The position numbers and the translations under genes are program-made. From NCBI GenBank assembly GCA_030272585.1, contig BSYQ01000001.1, positions 8,013,001 to 8,077,000 of the forward strand: 64,000 nucleotides of DNA, in the 5' to 3' direction. Position 1 is the stretch's first letter; the number at the start of each line of letters is the position of its first letter. Source of the stretch: Bryopsis sp. KO-2023 (Eukaryota; Chlorophyta; Ulvophyceae; Bryopsidales; Bryopsidaceae). This document shows positions 16,365 through 27,397 of the stretch, piece by piece. The notes below the pieces were generated by a model. It ran no database searches, had not been told where the DNA came from, and was given only the letters and a program-made list of their open reading frames with translations.

Positions 16365-19300
16365 ATGGCACCAGTCAATCCTGGGCAAGCGCTGAAGCTT
16401 GTGCTACTCCTGGCGGTCGTCGGCTGCCGAGCATTTGAACACTACTCTTTCGACGGCCGTGGAAACAATCTTCGACATAATGAATGGGGGTGAGGTGGAA
16501 CACACAGAGTCAATACTGCGGTTGACCAGGCTACAGAAACATCCGTGATGACAAGAGGTCGTGTTGCGTGCAACCGTTCACGTCAACGCGCGAAACGTCA
16601 CTTTTTCCCGAGTTATGAGCTCACGTGCTCAGGGAAACGATATCGTGGTCGAACGTTGCCGTGTTGTGAAAAAATTGTGTGAAAGGTGGTTTGCTTGTGG
16701 AGCGGAAAATGAAAAGGCTTCGCGCAGCCACAGTTCTCTTTGTATTTGTGATCCAAAGAACTGCCCAACGGGGCCCTTGGACAGAGTTGTGATGTGTGGC
16801 GGTTGTTTCTTCAAAATTGAAGAGAGGCGAATGTAGTCTGGGCAGCAGTCTGTTTTTTACTCTGTTCCTGTGTTGATGAGCTTGAGACCGTGTGGCGGCA
16901 GTTGCATGTTACTCTTGATGAGAATGGGTGTGTTACACCCTTTGCCAGTGTTGAGTTCCAGCAACGCTGCAGTGGTTTTTTTGAAGTTTTTCTCGAACAT
17001 GTTCGTTGGGGATTAGACACCCTCCGTCAGAGATTTGGGGGACGATGCCCCACCCCCTCATCCCTGATACCCCCATGATTGTAGCGAATTAGTGACAATT
17101 CTTTGGGATGATGAAGCCTGAGATCGGTTGTATCTGTCAGTTTAAAACATATATTTCTGCAACACTGGAATTTGTTCTCAAGATGGAACATCCAAGTGTC
17201 CAAACTCTTTTTAGACACAAGTTTCCCCCACGAGCAACACTCAGGTTCCACTTTGCAAATGAGTAACTTGGGCCTTTATTGAGACATTGGCCTTCCCTTC
17301 ATTCTCAGGTCGGTGGGAATCGACTTTCTGCGCCACCAAGTGAAATCGGTTGCCTATGAGGATGGGGTGTCATCTCTCGCAGTAAGCACACTGGATTCAG
17401 GAAGCTTGTTCATGCTGTTTTCCATCCACAGCACTAAATCAACTTCTCTTCTTTGTTGCACCAAAGGGGGATTCCAGCCGCCCCAGTGCTCGAGAGGTCA
17501 GTCTTCGCCTCTCCCTCCCAGCGTGGGCACATATCCCGACCACACAGGCACACCGCAAACAAACGGACATGGTCACCTACCTTGGTCAATTCTTTGATCA
17601 TGAGTTCGACCTGACGGGTGGTGGGAGTGAACCTGCTGCCATATCAATCCCAAAATGCGATCCGAAGTTCGACCCACGCTGCACAGGAACACAACAGCTG
17701 CCATTCAAGAGATCAGCTTTCAACGAAACTTCAGGAGTGCGACAGCAAATCAACACTGTCACTGCGTTTTTGGACGGGAGCGTCATGTATGGGTCCTCTG
17801 AGGAGGTGGCATACTCTTTGCGTTCATTCTACAAGGTAAAATAACGTTCATTCCACACTGTTTGAGCTGTGGCGGCTGCCGTTGCACAGTTGCAACTGAA
17901 ATGCTGAACAAGACAGTGTGCATGATTATTTTGCAGGGTTTGATGCTTACAGACGCCGGAGCAATGTTGCCAGATAATCACGTTGGCATTCACATGGAGC
18001 ATTTCGCTGAAATCCCCAAGGCTGCTGGAGATGTCCGAGCCAATGTGCACCCCCCCATGCTGGCATTCCAGGTAAAGACCGCTTCAAGTGGTGATGGCAG
18101 TGTGTTATTATTGCCCACAGTTTTATGTTGGACCTGGCACTCTTGAGAATGTTTGGTATGGAATTTGGATTTGTCTGTTTGGCACGTGAAATTGGCGTGC
18201 AATGTGCGTTTAAAGCATGCGAAATATCGGCATACTTTGTATACCAATCGCTGGCTGTGAAATTGGTGCAAAATTCTACCAAAACAAATAATTCCCCATT
18301 CTGTGAACTCTTTCATCTTCCCTTTATTATCGCTGATGGATTGCGTGCTTCCCACAGACGCTCTTCGTGCGAGAGCACAACCGTATGGCCAAAAAATTAT
18401 CGGAAGAAAACCCATCTTGGAATGATGAGACACTTTACAGGGAAGCCAGAAAATGGACCGTTGCGTTTCTACAAGCTATCTGTTGGTATGAATACCTTCC
18501 CTCATTGGGTATTCATGCAGATACATATCAAGGGTACGACCCTGAAGTGAATCCCAGTATCGACAATTTCTTCGCGACGGTCTCATACCGATATGGACAC
18601 AGCGAAATAAAGGAGCTGATCAGAAGAGTAGACGACAAAGGCCATGAAATAGAGGACGGCCACATGCTGTTGCATCAACATTATTTCTCCCCAAAGAAGA
18701 GTTTGAACGCTGGTGAGATTAAGAGCATCGCAAAATATACAGTGCATGGATGAAAGGGTCCTGAGCCGTCATAGTTGCACTCTGACCGAATGGGGAGCGT
18801 TCTTATCCTCCAACACAGCCTAGTCTTGAACAGTGACTTCTTTTTCACAGACATCGGTCCTATATTCCGGGGACTGTCCATGACCATGACCGGCGAAGTT
18901 GACACTTATTTCGCGAGCTCAATTCAACACTACTTGTTCGGTACTCCTGGGCTGGGAGGGACTGATTTGATCGCCTTGGATATCCAACGGTCGAGAGATC
19001 ATGGAACCGCGGACTACAACACAGCCAGGCAGGTAGTGAATGTGGACAGTTTACCAGATATCGAAAGCTGTATGAGCCTAAGGTAAAGTAGGTTTTTCTA
19101 ACTTGGTGCCGTTCCAAATAGGAATTGGGCCTGGAGCGTGTCACGTCCTTTTCCCAAATCACAAGCGACTCTTACGCGCAGAGGGCTATGGAGGTTGTTT
19201 ATGGATCTGTGGACAACATAGATGCGTTTGTTGGAGGAATGGCAGAGGACCCACTGGAGAATTCGAGCTTGGGGGCTCTGTTCTACGCCTCCATGAAAGA

Positions 19301-22300
19301 CCAATACGAAAGAATGAGGGATGGAGATCGATTTTACTTTGAGAACAAGGGAAACAACCTCTTTACCGATGATGAAATTGAGGAGATCAAGGGGACCTCC
19401 CTCAGAGACGTCATTCTGAGAAACACAGAAGTACAAGTACTCCCAGAAAACATCTACATCATCCAAGATCCAACATCTCCTTGGCCCAGAGAAAATGGTG
19501 GATCAGCTCCAGCTCCAGAGCAGACGGGCTCCAGGGGAGAAGTTACTCTGAAGGTCAACACAACAGATAGCACTGCATAGTTTTCCTCCAGCTCATCAGA
19601 AACAGGAATTTGTTCAAACATACAATTTGAAAGTGGATTTCGCCTGAGACATATTTTCGGTTGCAGGGAGATGCCACTTTAGAATACTGGACTGAGGGCC
19701 CTGACGCCCACTTCATAATTAAGGCCCCAGTTGCGGGATGGGTTGCCTTGGGGGTTGAGGGTCCTGGAGGCATGATTGATGCCGATATTATTATCGGAAG
19801 TGTGGATGGAGACCAGGTAATGCACTCGAGCGATACGCCTTCCCCGAATTCCGTGTGAAATGGTGTGCCTTTTTCCATGTTTAACTCTCTATGTGGTAAG
19901 AAGGGTGAGGTAGTGGACACCTGGAGTACAGCCTTCATTCAGCCCAGTCCTGATGTTGATGAAGGGGGCTCGAACGATGTCACCCTGCAAGCGTTTGAAG
20001 AGAAGGACGGGTTTACAAAGATCCATTTCTCCAGGCCACTGGAAGCGACGGACGACAAGGATCGTGCCATAAATTTGGACGCAGAAACAAAGTTCATTTT
20101 TGCCTGGCATGAGACTTCCGATGCACTGGAGTATCACGGGATTGGTAACAGGGGTAAAGTTGCTGTTACATTGTCGGAGGGAGGTGGAAGTGGTGACGGT
20201 GGGGACGAAGGCGGAGAAATTGTCTTGGGTGGGAGTTTGGAGCTCGCTGATGGCGCCTACAAGGTATCCTGGATAGTTGATCAGCCCGCAGGGAGAAAGC
20301 TCTTGCAGGATGGCGGCCAGAAGGTGCACTTTACGGCCACCCTCGAAGGCGAAGGTGTGTTTGTCTGTCCGAAGGTGTTCTCTTTGGTTTCCTGCAACGT
20401 TCGCTTTTCATCCAATACAGAAGCCACATTGCACTTTTGCGATAACAGGATGGATGGGGTTGGGACTTTCTGGAGAAGCCGGAGGCATGATCGGCGCCGA
20501 CATCATCATTGCCACCATGACCCCAGATGGCGATTGTGATGTTCAAGACTACTGGTCCGAGTCTTTCGCGGCACCCGCGAAAGACAAGGACAATGGAGGA
20601 AATGACGATATCACAGACGTAACCTGCACTCGGGACGGTGGCGTGACAGAGTTCAAGTTCTCGCGTCCCGTTGCAACTTCAGATGAGACAGACCTTCCGT
20701 AAGTACTGACCAAATTGCACGCGGGATAAAGTTGTTCATTCAATTTTCTCTCCAGCTTACGAATAAAAGAGTTGTGTTCTATCCACAGATTCAATCCTGA
20801 AGGGATAACTCCAATCATATACGCATGGTCTGGGGATTCCGACAGTGTTGGTTACCATGGTGCAGCGAACCGTGGCTCGGCAGAGGCGGAGACAGTTGCG
20901 ACGGAAACTGGAGGTGGTGGAGAGGGAGGCGGCGGTGGTAGCACAGGGGACCTCGTGTTCGCAGAGGCCCAATTGAATGGAAATTTTGCTCTTTTGTGGG
21001 CGCACGATGGAGAAGATGAGATCGTCATCAAAATGAGACTGAGCCTGGATGCATGGATGGGTATTGGTTTGGAACCTGAGGACAAGGGCATGACGAATTG
21101 CGATATGTATCTTGGGACGTTCGATGGAGGGAGCGTCCACGTTGGAGACTACTGGTCTGCAGGTGGGTGTTGTTTACACTTTGGTTGGCCGCCGGCCTCA
21201 CAATTCAATGTGGCGAATTCAATTCACTTTGGATTGTTGATTTCAGGGTATGCGCAGCCTGGCGACGATGCTTCGGCAGGAGGTAGCAACGATTTGATTG
21301 ATTTTGGGGGGTCGCAGGAGGGAGGAGTGTCAGAAGTATGGTTCAGAAGAAAGATGGACACTGGTGACGCTCTCGATATGACGATTAAAGACGAGTCCGT
21401 CGACTTGGTGTTTGCTTGGGGATCGTCCCCTTCTCTTGGTTATCACGGACCAGCTCAGCGTACCTTGGTTTCGATAAACTTGGCCAGCGCTGATGCCTCT
21501 GTTTCAACACAAGTCGACATTGGACGACGTATGATTGAATCACATGGGGGTATCATGGTGATTGCTTGGGCATTCATTGGCATCGTTGGAGTAGGGATCG
21601 CTCGTTTTGGGAGAGGATGGAGATATTGGCTCAAGGCCCACAGAATTCTGCAGGTGAGTTTGGATTCCAGGAAACGAGCTAAGAAAAAACCCATCATTTC
21701 GTTCAACTTCTTGACGCTTGAGTATTCCTCTTCCACAGATCGGAACCACAGTGGTCGCCCTTATCGGAGAGGTCATCGGATTTTCATACACGAGAGGAAG
21801 TTTCCGTACTGCACACAGTATCACGGCTTTGTGTGTGGTGTTCGTAACTTTTCCCCAAGTCTCTCTTGGGGCTGCGGCGATGAGGAAATCAAGCAATCCC
21901 AATTACAACAAACTCCACAGGGGAACAGGGTACTTTTTGGTGGGGCTGGCGCTGTGGCAGGTGCGAATCGACTTCTCTGTGGAAGGCTCCTGAGAAGAGA
22001 AAGACCTGCGACTCATTTGTCGACAAAGCGGACAATGAACAGTGACGGCTGTTTTTGCAGGTCTGGACAGGGCTCCTGACTCTGGAAGTCGGCAGCATGA
22101 TCAAGAACATGTACCTGACGTGGATTCTTGCGCTGCTCGTTGCTTTCCACTTCTCCTCGACACTTTTGACGCAAAAAGAGGTGGATCTTTTGCTAAAGGA
22201 TGCTCACGCTCCAACTCAAGACAAGAAGCAGAGGAGAAAGTCAGGAGCTAAGCAAATGTCCAGAGGCTCGCGAGGTGAGTGCAGTCGTGTTCTTTTTATG

Positions 22301-25300
22301 CCATCTCCCGAAGACGTGGAAGAGACTTTGCTGTAGCTGAATTTATCTTTCGTTCTCCAGGTGCCGGCGCCCTGTTGGCTGAAGTGAAAGATTTGGAGGA
22401 GGACAAAGACGAGGAATCACACGACGACACCGACACTGAGAAAAAGAACGACAAGGTACACACACACACACACAAGTTTCTGGAAGCTCATCTCGGCCGC
22501 CATTGTGTAGCTAAGAATCACTCGTCATCTGTATGGAAAGAACAGACTGGCAGCGGTAATGCGTTTCCTCTCTGTGAGACTGCGTGGTTCAACTGTTGTT
22601 GTCGGTGCATCAGGCGAAACGCGGCGCGAAATCCTCAAAGACATCCCAGGAGCTGATCGAGCTCCTGATCGACGATCGAAGTTCAGACGACGGAGGCAGC
22701 GATAACGATAGCGACAACAGGTGGATGCAGTTTGAAATCACTTAGGTTGTGACTCTGGAAGGGGTGGTGTCGAGCCTTTCTTCTCACTTAATTCTCTGTT
22801 GTGCAGTGATGGAGCGACAGGATGGAGTAGAACCGATGGGGATGGCAGCATGATGGGGGATACAACGATCACGTCGGAAGATTTCCTGACGGTAAGGATA
22901 TCTACACACCAAAAGAGCTCCCAGAGGGAACAGAGGTTTTGTACCCAATATTGGAATATGGTGGAATCCTATTGATTTTAGTGGTTCGGGTGTTTGAGGT
23001 TAAAGAGCTCCCTGTCCTTGTAAAAACTCTGAGCATCCATTCTACAGTTCATTCTTCAAACTAACAAACATGATCACATGATTCCATTCTTCAGGGCGTG
23101 CAAGAAGGGAAAAAATGGACCATCATCAATGACGTCGTATATGATATGACCTTTTACGTCGCAGAGCACCCAGGTGGCCAAAAAGTCCTCGAGGATATTA
23201 CAGGTGTGCAATTAAAAAAAATAAAAAAACTTTCAGCACCAGATCACTCAATTTGTTGCTCTCCAGTCTTCCAGTGCCCATGGGTTGAAGAAAGATGTTC
23301 TCTTTCAGGAATGGATGGCACAGACTCTTTCCTGGAGGTTCACGGAGGTGACAGGAAGGTCTTGAAAATCCTGCAAGGTTTGACTGTTGGTGATCTGAAT
23401 GATTCAATCGGGATTTTGGACAACGAGGACGACCGAGAAGAGGTGAGCCGGGGTCTGCATGAGCAAATTCATACAGAACTTGAACTTTCCGAGAAAGCAC
23501 CCATCCATGCATGTGTCTGATGGGGATGAAACAAATGGACACTGAGCTGGAAGAGTTGAGACTGGCATACATGTACAGATTTTGATCGGATTTGATGTGT
23601 GTGGTAGGAGAGGAGAGGGTCCCTGCTGCACCGTGCTCGAACAAGTTTGGCAGGGGTGCTTGGAGGAAAGAGCAGGCTGGGAGCTGAACAAGACCCAGGT
23701 ACCCAACATCTTGTCAAAAGCTCTCAGATTCCTTCAACTCACCCCAAACATAGATCTAAATCAGCTCACCTGCGATTTGTCGAATACCTGTGTTACTGCA
23801 AGACCAACACGACTAATTCGCGCTTGTTAAACAAGGCTTTCAGCGGATGCAAGCCATTGAACTTCAAGCATAGATTGAACTGATCTGTGTAAATGCTGTC
23901 CATTTCCAGTACGAACATCAGATGTTGCGATGTTGGGTCCATCCAAAATTCCCAGTGCCATGGAGGATAATACATGGAAGGCGCAGCCCGAACAGCAGGT
24001 TTGGCTTTGCTTGCTTTTCAAGTCCACAAATATTGCTTCTCTTCAGAAACCAAAATTGACGATCATGAGGCATCCATAGTGTTAAAAGCGATTGTTGAAA
24101 TTCGGCAAAGAACACCAGCCCACCTCATTGACCAAATCACGTTTGCATTACAGCTACCAAAATTGAGGTCTCTCATCCCAACTGCATCGGAGCCAGAAGT
24201 CAACACTCCAACAGTAGGACTGGCCAGGAAAGTCTGGAAGGACTTCCCAGTTGTCGACATTACCGAGGTCAATGATGATGTCGTTATCCTCCATGTTGAA
24301 ATTCCAGGTAAATTCCCCTGCCCTCCCCCTCAACATAAGAAAGAATTCAAGAAGTTTGAAATTGTGACAAAAAATGGTTGCAAATCGATCAATAAATAGA
24401 ACAGACGCACACTGGATGGGTTTGCTTGACTTGATTATTGGCTGGGCAACATGAATTTGAAGCTGTTGTGCTTGCGGATTTCAGACTGCCCTGATGTGAC
24501 CTTACCAATCACCTCACACATCATGATCAAGGGGACCGACCCTGCCACCAACAAGGTGGTCAACAGAGCTTTCACTCCCCTCATTCCCGATCAAGACGAA
24601 TATCCTGGACGGATGGATATCCTCATTAAGTGCTACGAAGATGGGAGAATGAGCCGGTACATTCGCACTTTGAAACCTGGTGACTGCATACCGCTCAAGG
24701 GACCCATGAGGGGGGTGGAATACCACAATGGGAAATTTGAGAGAATCGGATTGATCGGAGGAGGCAGCGGAATAACTCCTCTGTGGCAGGTGAGAATTTT
24801 TCACCTTTGGAACCGAAAAATCACTATGCACAAGACATTTCTTGGAGATATCGAAACTGTGCAAAGCTTGCGGTAGATAATCCTATTTTTTTAAAGTTCT
24901 ATCGAAATTAGAGGTGTGAATGATCATCTGAAGGTTTTATGGGATGTTGTGTGAAAAGGTCATTGAAGGTATTCTGAAGAACCCAGATGACAACACCAAG
25001 ATTTCCCTTGTCTACCAAAACCGCTACGAGAAAGACATTCTGCTGAGGGATGAAATCGACGCCATGGCTAGAAAGCACTCCAATCAATTCAGGGTAACAC
25101 CCAACATCATTATCCCAAGGACAAATCTCCCCCAAACATAGCAGAATGAATTCAACCTGAGTTCACCTCATACCCTGTGGACTGTGATCGGGTGTGGTCC
25201 CATCTGAAGCGGGAGGTTTGGTTTTGCAGGTTTGCTACGTGCTATCCCAGCCACCATCTGGATGGGTTGGATTCAGCGGACGTATTAACGCCGATATGCT

Positions 25301-25472
25301 AGCCCAGCAATTGCCACCAGCGCACTTGTCAGGGTCGTACGTGATGGTGTGTGGTCCTCCCGCCATGTGCAAATCTTTGGGAGGAGAGTTCGACGCGAAA
25401 ATCATGGAGAGGGGACCCGGAATCTTGAGCCAGTTGGGCTTCACAAAGAACACCATGCATATTTACGAATAA
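16365..25472 (+). CDS. Heme peroxidase-3xDOMON-cytochrome b561-cytochrome b5-b5 reductase fusion
   Basis: Twenty-four exons (16365-16489, 17309-17381, 17467-17835, 17937-18071, 18358-18712, 18851-19032, 19122-19553, 19667-19816, 19904-20354, 20449-20698, 20789-21162, 21247-21653, 21739-21960, 22061-22274, 22361-22455, 22614-22720, 22807-22891, 23095-23203, 23309-23442, 23608-23698, 24047-24307, 24485-24789, 24959-25093, 25230-25472) keep phase and sum to 5304 nt, 1767 residues. Signal peptide 1-24. Animal-type peroxidase about 25-550: QFFDHEF (distal His ~111), REHNR (~239), YRYGH (proximal His ~315), RDHGTADYN. Three DOMON domains (~558-1045), each with a Met and a YHG His. b561 core with five membrane helices and His ~1065, 1097, 1127, 1161. 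Acidic linker; cytochrome b5 (HPGG, His ~1367 and ~1390); reductase with NRAFTP, GRMS, GGGSGITP and CGPPAM. Inferred role: electrons from cytosolic NAD(P)H across the membrane to an external peroxidase. The small exon 23608-23698 is the least certain. Confidence 0.9.
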
Positions 25473-26055: not shown

Positions 26056-27397
26056 TTAGACCTTAGTTCCTTCTGGCAAAACTCGCTTCAGGATGTCAGC
26101 GCTCAACTTGTCGACCTAGAGAAAAGAAGAAAAAAACCACAGCCAGATTTAAGAAACAATTCAAAAAACATACCAGAGATGCTCAAGGAAATTATTCCAC
26201 AACATGACACTGTAAGAGAATAATTGATCGATTAACGCAGTTGACAGTTGGACCTGTATGAGATCAGTTTTGATGATATCCAGAATCCACCCAGAATTCA
26301 ATTGTGCAGTACTGCAGCTGCAGTGCAGAATTTTCACCTGGGCATCGAGAGATGTCATGGCGGCTGCTTGCTCCTTCTCGAGGGCAGCAAAAGCAACCTC
26401 CAATTCGGCATCCACCTCCTGCAGTTTTCCCAAACGAAAACCCTTGAGAATCAATCCATCGAAAAAACACACACTTTCGAACTCCCAAACGAAATCAACA
26501 CCCAATATATCGGCCGTCACACCGACCCCATCGATGTTCTGCACGGAAATTCATCATCCCAGCACATATCCTGGCCATGAAAACTGCTCAGACACCCCTT
26601 GTTCTTTCCCCAAGGTGCTGAATTCATCCACCCCGTTCCTCTAGAGGAAGCAGGAGCTGGTCACCTTTTTGGCAGCATCGAACTTCTCAGTCATCTCAGC
26701 CTGGGCCTCGTTTTTGGCCTGGTTGATGGTGGCCTGAGCTTCAGCCCTGGCCTCCTTCAAAATCTTGGAGGCCTCTTCCTCCAGGGCAGTAATTTCTGCA
26801 GAGTTGTCACCGACAGCTGCCAGCTTGTCCCTGATCATCTTGTCACGGTCGTCCAAGACCTTTCCAACGGGTCCAAACCAACCCTTGTCGAGGTACACCA
26901 TAAGTACAAGGAATTGACCGACCATGTACGGGAGGGTTAAGTTGAAGTCGAAAATTTTTCCAGAAGCGGCGAGGGCAGGCATCGCGAGGAGAGCGTTGGA
27001 AGCGGCGGTGAAAACGATTGGCTTCACAACAGCGGAGAGGTCGAAGCTCCTGGACATCAGCGTACAGTATCGGACTCAGCTGCGCGAAAGGGATCATATG
27101 GAGAGAACTATCAGCCATGCCAATGTCCCCCCCTCCCCAATAGCCCGACACACACGGCGCGGTGTGTGAAGGCCCAACCAAGCGGGTTGACTTTCAACGA
27201 AACGTGCAGTACACAGGCGGTTTGCAGCAGAAGGACGCTGAGTCTCACTTCACGCGCTTCTCAATGGGCTTTGCGGAAGCACCCTTCTCAGCGCGGACAA
27301 CCAACGCGGTGGCTCGGGAGGAGACGCCAGCGTTCCTGGACCTGAGGCCGGCGGCCTGGTGCGAAAGCACGTGGGAAGCAGCGATCATGGACGCCAT
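26056..27397 (-). CDS. atpG: Plastid ATP synthase CF0 subunit II (b-prime), nuclear copy
   Basis: Four exons, 27397-27249, 27049-26665, 26418-26338 and 26115-26056, all GT-AG and in phase, give 224 residues. The first ~48 residues are an Ala/Ser/Arg-rich plastid transit peptide (MASMIAASHVLSHQ..., VVRAEK). A second hydrophobic segment ends in AMPALAAS, the thylakoid-transfer part known for CF0-II precursors. The mature protein starts near GKIFDFNLTLP, has one membrane helix (MVGQFLVLMVYL) and then the long charged stator helix (GPVGKVLDDRDKMIRDKL...). It forms the peripheral stalk of the chloroplast ATP synthase together with AtpF. A nuclear gene for this subunit is a green-lineage trait, since red-type plastids keep it. 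An upstream in-frame ATG at 27475 exists, but the start at 27397 gives a standard leader. Confidence 0.95.

Follow-up and report, generated by a model that had tools for sequence, protein, structure and literature searches.

A green algal gene that joins an animal-type heme peroxidase to a predicted trans-membrane electron chain

The green alga Bryopsis sp. KO-2023 (Bryopsidales) carries a gene whose predicted product joins, in one chain, an animal-type heme peroxidase, three DOMON domains, a cytochrome b561 core, a cytochrome b5 and a cytochrome b5 reductase. The gene, of 25 exons, occupies positions 16365..25472 (+ strand) of a 64,000-nucleotide stretch that is called the window hereafter (C1:8013001-8077000, in a host genome of 91 Mb and 28 contigs). 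From the order of the domains and the residues that they keep, we tentatively read the 1761-residue protein as a single-chain trans-membrane peroxidase driven by nicotinamide adenine dinucleotide (NADH). The electron flow that this implies is our inference, and we consider the reading possible, short of probable.

Results

The gene was rebuilt from the DNA, with splice sites placed by eye and checked by script. All 24 introns are of the GT-AG type, and the coding sequence amounts to 5286 nucleotides including the stop. Divided by three, the intron lengths leave remainders of 0, 1 and 2 in equal numbers (eight each), and the frame is nevertheless kept throughout. Because the lengths of 16 of the 24 introns are not multiples of three, simple reading through the introns does not account for the open frame. 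The initial annotation of this DNA had given the same start and end, which stand, but it counted 24 exons and 1767 residues, numbers that the rebuilt gene replaces.

A protein search found the public annotation of the gene, BSKO_01713 (1662 residues), at 100% identity over 94% of the query. This model starts at Met100 of the rebuilt protein, inside exon 3, and joins exons 3-25; the signal peptide and the beginning of the peroxidase, encoded by exons 1-2, are missing from it. These two exons are backed by homology, since their residues (FDGRGNNLRHNEWGS, YEDGVSS) match the solved peroxidase 8s6c, and since two of the relatives described below, Chlorokybus P0003 and Cymbomonas P0021, share the N-terminal motif, placed after a leader. 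Another relative, P0002 (EukProt g480.t1), is 52% identical to the window protein across 94% of the chain. Given this alignment, and given that the public annotation joins exons 3-25, sequence comparison confirmed that peroxidase to reductase is one gene, beyond chance. Before exon 9 lies a tandem acceptor, TAAGAAG (19897-19903), at which one Lys is gained or lost; the extra Lys is present in BSKO_01713 and absent from both the rebuilt model and P0002.

The domain order claimed at the outset was borne out by Pfam scans and hydropathy (all features on the + strand). A likely signal peptide (MAPVNPGQALKLVLLLAVVGCR, 16365..16430), recognised by eye and by hydropathy and with similar leaders in P0003 and P0021, precedes the peroxidase (residues 28-520, exons 1-7, 16446..19442). 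The latter matches An_peroxidase PF03098 with E 6.5e-135 and 451.1 bits against a cut-off of 25, which places it in the superfamily. Three DOMON domains follow (PF03351, E 2.3e-63 for the protein), at residues ~558-690 (19667..20152), ~726-872 (20258..20882) and 904 to ~1035 (20976..21455). After them come a b561 core of five hydrophobic helices (residues ~1062-1212, 21534..22171) and an acidic linker, predicted to be cytosolic (exons 14-18, 22172..23100), the coding nature of which is conserved in P0002 (43 of 110 aligned residues identical, 39%). The chain ends with a cytochrome b5 domain (residues 1345-1408, 23101..23397, E 4.6e-13) and a cytochrome b5 reductase module (24244..25376) made of FAD_binding_6 (1514-1614, E 8.6e-16) and NAD_binding_1 (1624-1730, E 3.2e-27).

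The Cytochrom_B561 match itself (PF03188, residues 1091-1181, E 8e-4) reaches 20.1 bits, under the 23-bit cut-off. This weak call is backed by its position after the DOMON domains, by the five hydrophobic stretches and by four conserved His, and the succession of DOMON and b561 is the one that defines CYBDOM proteins. A sequence search of the DOMON/b561 part against the PDB gave no meaningful match (best E 0.33). By hydropathy, the protein has the N-terminal leader, five stretches within 1066-1212 (overlaps merged) and one further marginal stretch, 760-778, within DOMON 2. Five membrane helices would put the two chain ends on opposite sides, as had been anticipated, with the peroxidase and the DOMON domains on one side of the membrane and b5 and its reductase on the other.

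In the domain alignment, the window peroxidase keeps Q107, D110, the distal H111 (codon 17599-17601, +), the catalytic R223, the proximal H315 (codon 18598-18600, +) and N409, the Asn partner of the proximal His, whose role is assigned by homology only. All six green rows that extend over the distal site (window, P0002, P0003, P0021, P0022, P0023) have the distal His and the catalytic Arg, and all eight green rows have the proximal His; the Tetradesmus models P0024 and P0025, cut at the N-terminus, start near the Arg site, and no Arg was seen in them. Excerpts of PMC4420034 give XGQXXDHDX as the distal motif of the superfamily. The window protein has LGQFFDHEF, with the final Asp, a Ca2+ site, changed to Glu112; P0003, P0021, P0022 and P0023 have Asp. 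The best structure matches of the domain are 8s6c, of bacterial origin (E 1.6e-109), and Dictyostelium PoxA 6erc (E 1.7e-86), neither of which is joined to a membrane chain.

In the peroxidase-cyclooxygenase superfamily, the Glu of an RXXE motif forms the second heme ester, according to excerpts of PMC4420034. The window protein keeps R223 and has V226 in place of the Glu, whereas 8s6c and PoxA keep the Glu. All six green rows that reach across the distal half have Val at this position, and the two cut models, P0024 and P0025, have Gln. The loss is not confined to the fusion, since the sponge protein P0040 also has Val. Judged by alignment, V226 is the mark of an odd member of the superfamily, not of a different fold. 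In MPO variants, loss of the heme ester is reportedly tied to poorer halide oxidation. By analogy, the missing Glu suggests a peroxidase less fit for halide oxidation, and it would also fit a peroxidase fed with single electrons.

The heme ligands of the plant CYBDOM HYP1 have been modelled and partly tested (H245-H314, H211-H278, M90-H174), and the H211L/H278L substitutions abolished transport (excerpts of PMC10784544). Met and His lie at places matching HYP1 M90/H174 by motif in all three window DOMONs, giving the candidate ligand pairs M593/H685, M771/H864 and M942/H1032, and the spacing of H1065, H1097, H1127 and H1161 in b561 is near that of HYP1 H211, H245, H278 and H314. An alignment of 11 rows was made with the window and 10 relatives, P0025 being left out. 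The last-DOMON Met is found in 11 of the 11 rows, the His in 10, and the four b561 His also in 10, the exception for b561 being P0041, a model without complete b561. The two b561 His pairs and the DOMON Met/His expected of a CYBDOM are thus recognised by position and motif. Looked for by eye, the HYP1 ascorbate-site residues had no unambiguous place in the window protein.

The predicted axial ligands of cytochrome b5 are H1367, in HPGG, and H1390 (residue 1389 is Val). NADH-cytochrome b5 reductases bear the motifs RxFTP, GxGxGIxP and CGPP; the window module has RAFTP at 1562, GGGSGITP at 1626 and CGPP at 1722, and is closest to these enzymes (2eix, E 3.3e-48). By alignments and motifs, then, residues for the unbroken heme path that the initial annotation had drawn are present at every step.

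Relatives were sought by three protein searches, in which only about 8000 candidates sharing most words and falling within the length range were scored, and by Pfam scans; with this coverage, absence from other lineages carries little weight. Besides the window's own product, 11 proteins have a peroxidase followed by DOMON, and an architecture unique to Bryopsis was rejected on the strength of these green algal and chytrid relatives. Chlorophyta are represented by Cymbomonas and Edaphochlamys as well as Bryopsis, Streptophyta by Chlorokybus, and Chytridiomycota by Geranomyces and Physocladia. The order had been proposed for a search in other green algae, where it was indeed found (Cymbomonas P0022, and the alga-like P0002), and it occurs in chytrid fungi also. 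The earlier statement that no protein of this order was known holds for the open-licence papers searched but not for protein databases, where the entries mostly have no functional name.

Cyt-b5 and FAD domains are above cut-off in six of the 11: the order is conserved in P0002, P0022 and P0077 (source code lgn), and looser in Physocladia P0041 and in Geranomyces P0065 and P0066. In the P0002 model, residues 18-91 are an Spt4 zinc finger that replaces the peroxidase N-terminus, probably through a wrong join with a neighbour. P0077 has only the peroxidase end (39.4 bits), P0041 is partial, and P0065 and P0066 have an SH3 domain after FAD_binding_6, inside the reductase module. Cymbomonas P0021 breaks off within a b5 match that is itself weak (19.8 bits, cut-off 23.7). 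In four models, Chlorokybus P0003, Edaphochlamys P0023 and Tetradesmus P0024 and P0025, the membrane part is followed by no match to b5, FAD or NAD domains. For b561, Pfam scores clear the cut-off in P0023, P0024, P0025, P0065 and P0066; the window protein, P0002, P0022 and P0077 have matches that fall short of it, and P0003, P0021 and P0041 have none.

For a DOMON-b561-b5 reductase family free of peroxidase, a profile search with the C-terminal half returned P0077 alone, which itself carries the peroxidase end; this search, over 7995 candidates, was a weak one, as it missed P0065 and P0066 although both were within the length limits and P0066 was part of the query. The AlphaFold model of P0023 shows a beta-sandwich DOMON and five long helices, with a mean predicted local distance difference test score (pLDDT) of 66 and a predicted template modelling score (pTM) of 0.47. 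Its matches listed by Foldseek and VIA-align are peroxidases and cyclooxygenases, with no DOMON or b561 structure among the 50 listed by each.

Animal-type heme peroxidases are multi-locus in Bryopsis, with at least 12 loci bearing PF03098 (grouped matches). Among 12 loci, peroxidase and DOMON occur together only in the window and on contig C25; a genome search for DOMON gave no nearby match at the other 10. In this second locus (L023 and L030, C25:570-13339, - strand), tblastn matches follow the order of the window gene, from peroxidase exons through four DOMON units and b561 to b5. The reductase would fall past the end of this contig, which is 27.8 kb long. One of the four DOMON units is without both heme ligands. 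The C25 peroxidase is probably non-catalytic, because its proximal His region reads SEYSQ, not YRYGH. A further peroxidase, L051 (C6:6052451-6055150, - strand), has the signature of the fused clade, GDVRANV and YRYGH.

A simple pattern for the RxxE motif was found in nine of the 12 loci and not in the other three. Its last residue is Glu in five (L033, L035, L037, L038, L044), Val in three (window, L034, L045) and Met in one (C25). As far as these residues tell, loss of the heme-ester Glu is typical of the fused proteins and not exclusive to them.

Trees of the peroxidase domain were computed from proteins of at least about 940 residues, which leaves no MPO, LPO, peroxinectin or short bacterial enzyme among the rows; the trees are midpoint-rooted and have long branches. 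The starting set was 77 rows (the window and 76 proteins), 68 of which passed a coverage rule that P0077 failed, so that it is outside the trees. Manual pruning then took out 27 of the 68, for the most part nearly identical peroxidasins and long proteins of bacteria or insects, together with P0025, a near-copy of P0024, leaving 41 domains. In the 41-domain tree, seven algal fusion domains are on one side of a branch with support 95/89, and Physocladia joins them (95/84). Geranomyces goes with DUOX, not with the algae (93/70); algae and chytrids held together were not rejected (p-AU 0.351). Algal, chytrid and DUOX rows stand opposite the bacterial, peroxidasin, insect and sponge rows (99/93). 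Without the three chytrids, P0010 and the sponge, algae and DUOX come together (98/97), and without the four DUOX and the sponge, the seven algal and three chytrid rows are on one side (99/95). That the algal peroxidase domains are nearest to those of DUOX is a lead only, because of the midpoint roots, the long branches and the missing MPO, peroxinectin and short bacterial families. The distal position is Ser in both DUOX rows compared, and the chytrid copies parallel DUOX in the absence of the distal His.

The gene is flanked upstream by the end of an M16-type peptidase, PqqF-like C4 (14827-15063 and 15281-15532, +; E 2.3e-11, the second stretch being weak, 0.004), and downstream by an ATP synthase CF0 B/B' subunit (26644-27075, - strand; E 1.2e-15). 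Rfam (gathering threshold) and tRNA scans of the 64-kb window found nothing.

Discussion

In the mechanism that we propose, electrons would go from cytosolic NADH to flavin adenine dinucleotide (FAD), to b5, to the inner and then the outer b561 heme, and on to the DOMON hemes, which would re-reduce the peroxidase once it has reacted with hydrogen peroxide (H2O2) outside the membrane. The net result would be that external H2O2, together with radicals made by the peroxidase, is removed or metered with cytosolic NADH. HYP1 provides the precedent for the membrane step: excerpts of PMC10784544 describe electrons carried outward through the plasma membrane from ascorbate, a transport for which the outer b561 His pair is required. 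The b5 and b5 reductase in cis would replace ascorbate, and a soluble donor would still serve the four relatives in which b561 is followed by no match to b5 or the reductase. Since HYP1 takes its electrons from ascorbate, its hemes are likely to be at positive potential, which would favour a peroxidase intermediate as acceptor over the formation of superoxide. Ascorbate-reducible hemes are weak O2 reductants, and for this reason we rank consumption of H2O2 above its production.

Several observations weigh against this mechanism. The three chytrid copies keep the reductase side and the proximal His, yet the distal His is absent from all three and the catalytic Arg was seen in none, P0041 having a gap there. 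The two Geranomyces proteins have no NAD call, their DOMON matches (31.8 and 27.4 bits for P0065 and P0066) are under the cut-off of 32.7, and P0066 is without the second b5 His; P0041, which has no b561 call, has only one of the four b561 His. At C25, the order is kept and the proximal His is lost. From the residue losses in the chytrids and at C25, it appears that the chain can be kept without full peroxidase catalysis. Furthermore, b5 reductase is absent from the models of Chlorophyceae and Chlorokybus, the C6 peroxidase has no DOMON or b561 match within about 12 kb downstream, and the P0023 model, with its pTM of 0.47, is unreliable on the relative placement of peroxidase and DOMON.

It could be that the two halves are merely housed together. 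The b5 reductase-b5-b561-DOMON part would then be a metal or quinone reductase, the peroxidase would act separately on outside substrates such as wall phenolics, tyrosines or halides, and the fusion would put both at the surface. HYP1 reduces ferric and cupric substrates (excerpts of PMC10784544), the degenerate chytrid and C25 domains make the reductase half seem useful without peroxidase catalysis, and the C6 peroxidase, of the same type, has no chain match over the 12 kb or so downstream. However, the order of peroxidase then DOMON is held from Chlorokybus to Bryopsidales to chytrids, which exceeds the constraint that co-location needs, and we find this account rather unlikely, if serious. 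A smaller role for the chain is also conceivable, with the DOMONs acting chiefly to bind sugars and so anchor the protein in the wall, and the peroxidase just tethered to membrane and wall. DOMON domains are reported to bind heme or sugars (excerpts of PMC3591440 and PMC10784544), and the C25 unit without both heme ligands would suit such a use; yet Met and His are at the expected places in all three window DOMONs and are nearly invariant in the last DOMON of the relatives, which makes pure anchoring very improbable.

Dual oxidase (DUOX), Family 7 of the peroxidase-cyclooxygenase superfamily, invites another comparison, as it too unites in a single polypeptide an extracellular N-terminal peroxidase, a trans-membrane heme chain and a cytosolic FAD/NAD(P)H module. 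By likeness to it, the chain could reduce external O2 to superoxide or H2O2, to be used by the peroxidase on its substrates. But the electron module of the window protein is b561, DOMON, b5 and b5 reductase, not a NOX core: PF01794 (the NOX ferric-reductase domain), PF08022 and EF hands are absent by Pfam at E 0.1, and PF08030 is at 18.5 bits, below its cut-off of 22.2. The b561 hemes, if they take ascorbate electrons, would reduce O2 poorly, and DOMON hemes with Met and His ligands would be six-coordinate. Production of H2O2 by the chain is for these reasons unlikely. Far less likely still is that two adjacent genes were falsely joined. Four relatives do lack b5 reductase after b561, and P0002 itself bears an Spt4 piece; against this, the same junction is crossed in BSKO_01713, P0002, P0022, P0077 and, as far as b5, at the second Bryopsis locus, and the linker is conserved with P0002 over its 110 aligned residues. 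With the join recurring in other species, such an artefact was set aside.

Returning to the NADH-driven peroxidase, the initial annotation had described it as a mirror of DUOX built from unrelated parts. The electron-supplying half is indeed unrelated, whereas the peroxidase is of the same superfamily and near DUOX in our trees; the window protein also keeps the distal His where the two DUOX rows have Ser. With HYP1 it shares DOMON and a five-helix b561, the heme-ligand pattern, a signal peptide and, if our reading is right, outward electron flow; HYP1 differs, in excerpts of PMC10784544, by having no peroxidase, one DOMON, ascorbate as donor and no built-in b5 and b5 reductase. The DOMON-bearing ferric reductases (eFRE) of Naegleria and oomycetes have an FRD-type membrane domain, and excerpts of their description mention no peroxidase, b561 or b5. 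In bacterial di-heme cytochrome c peroxidases, too, one heme of the chain feeds the peroxidase heme, but these are periplasmic enzymes of unrelated fold, with no trans-membrane NADH chain in cis. A search on wound responses in open-licence PMC papers gave nothing of use. Searches of these papers aimed at the architecture brought up no description of a peroxidase joined to DOMON/b561, a scope that leaves out subscription papers, preprints, supplements and genome-browser annotations, and excerpts of PMC3591440, PMC4855317, PMC6411640, PMC9524095, PMC5080974, PMC9137787 and PMC4420034 describe no such fusion. Each module is known; we take the combination and its likely wiring to be new.

The peroxidase domains of DUOX are without needed residues (excerpts of PMC6411640 and PMC4420034), and excerpts of PMC4420034 also call the domain inactive and its function obscure. 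A wider proposal, which we hold as doubtful though worth stating, is that the fused proteins form an undescribed family of trans-membrane NADH:hydrogen-peroxide oxidoreductases, or "wired peroxidases", that would predate the spread of green algae and chytrids. Their peroxidase would share an immediate ancestor with that of animal DUOX, and DUOX and the chytrid copies would have lost peroxidase catalysis independently while keeping a chain.

Animal-type heme peroxidases are pictured as drawing electrons from any substrate that they meet. If our reading is true, a peroxidase wired to cytosolic NADH via up to six b-hemes (three in DOMON, two in b561, one in b5) would let a cell act on external H2O2 in a new manner, and DOMON domains would gain a defined downstream partner. 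It would also bear on the question of the DUOX peroxidase, as a related domain here keeps its catalytic residues and is likewise joined to a trans-membrane chain.

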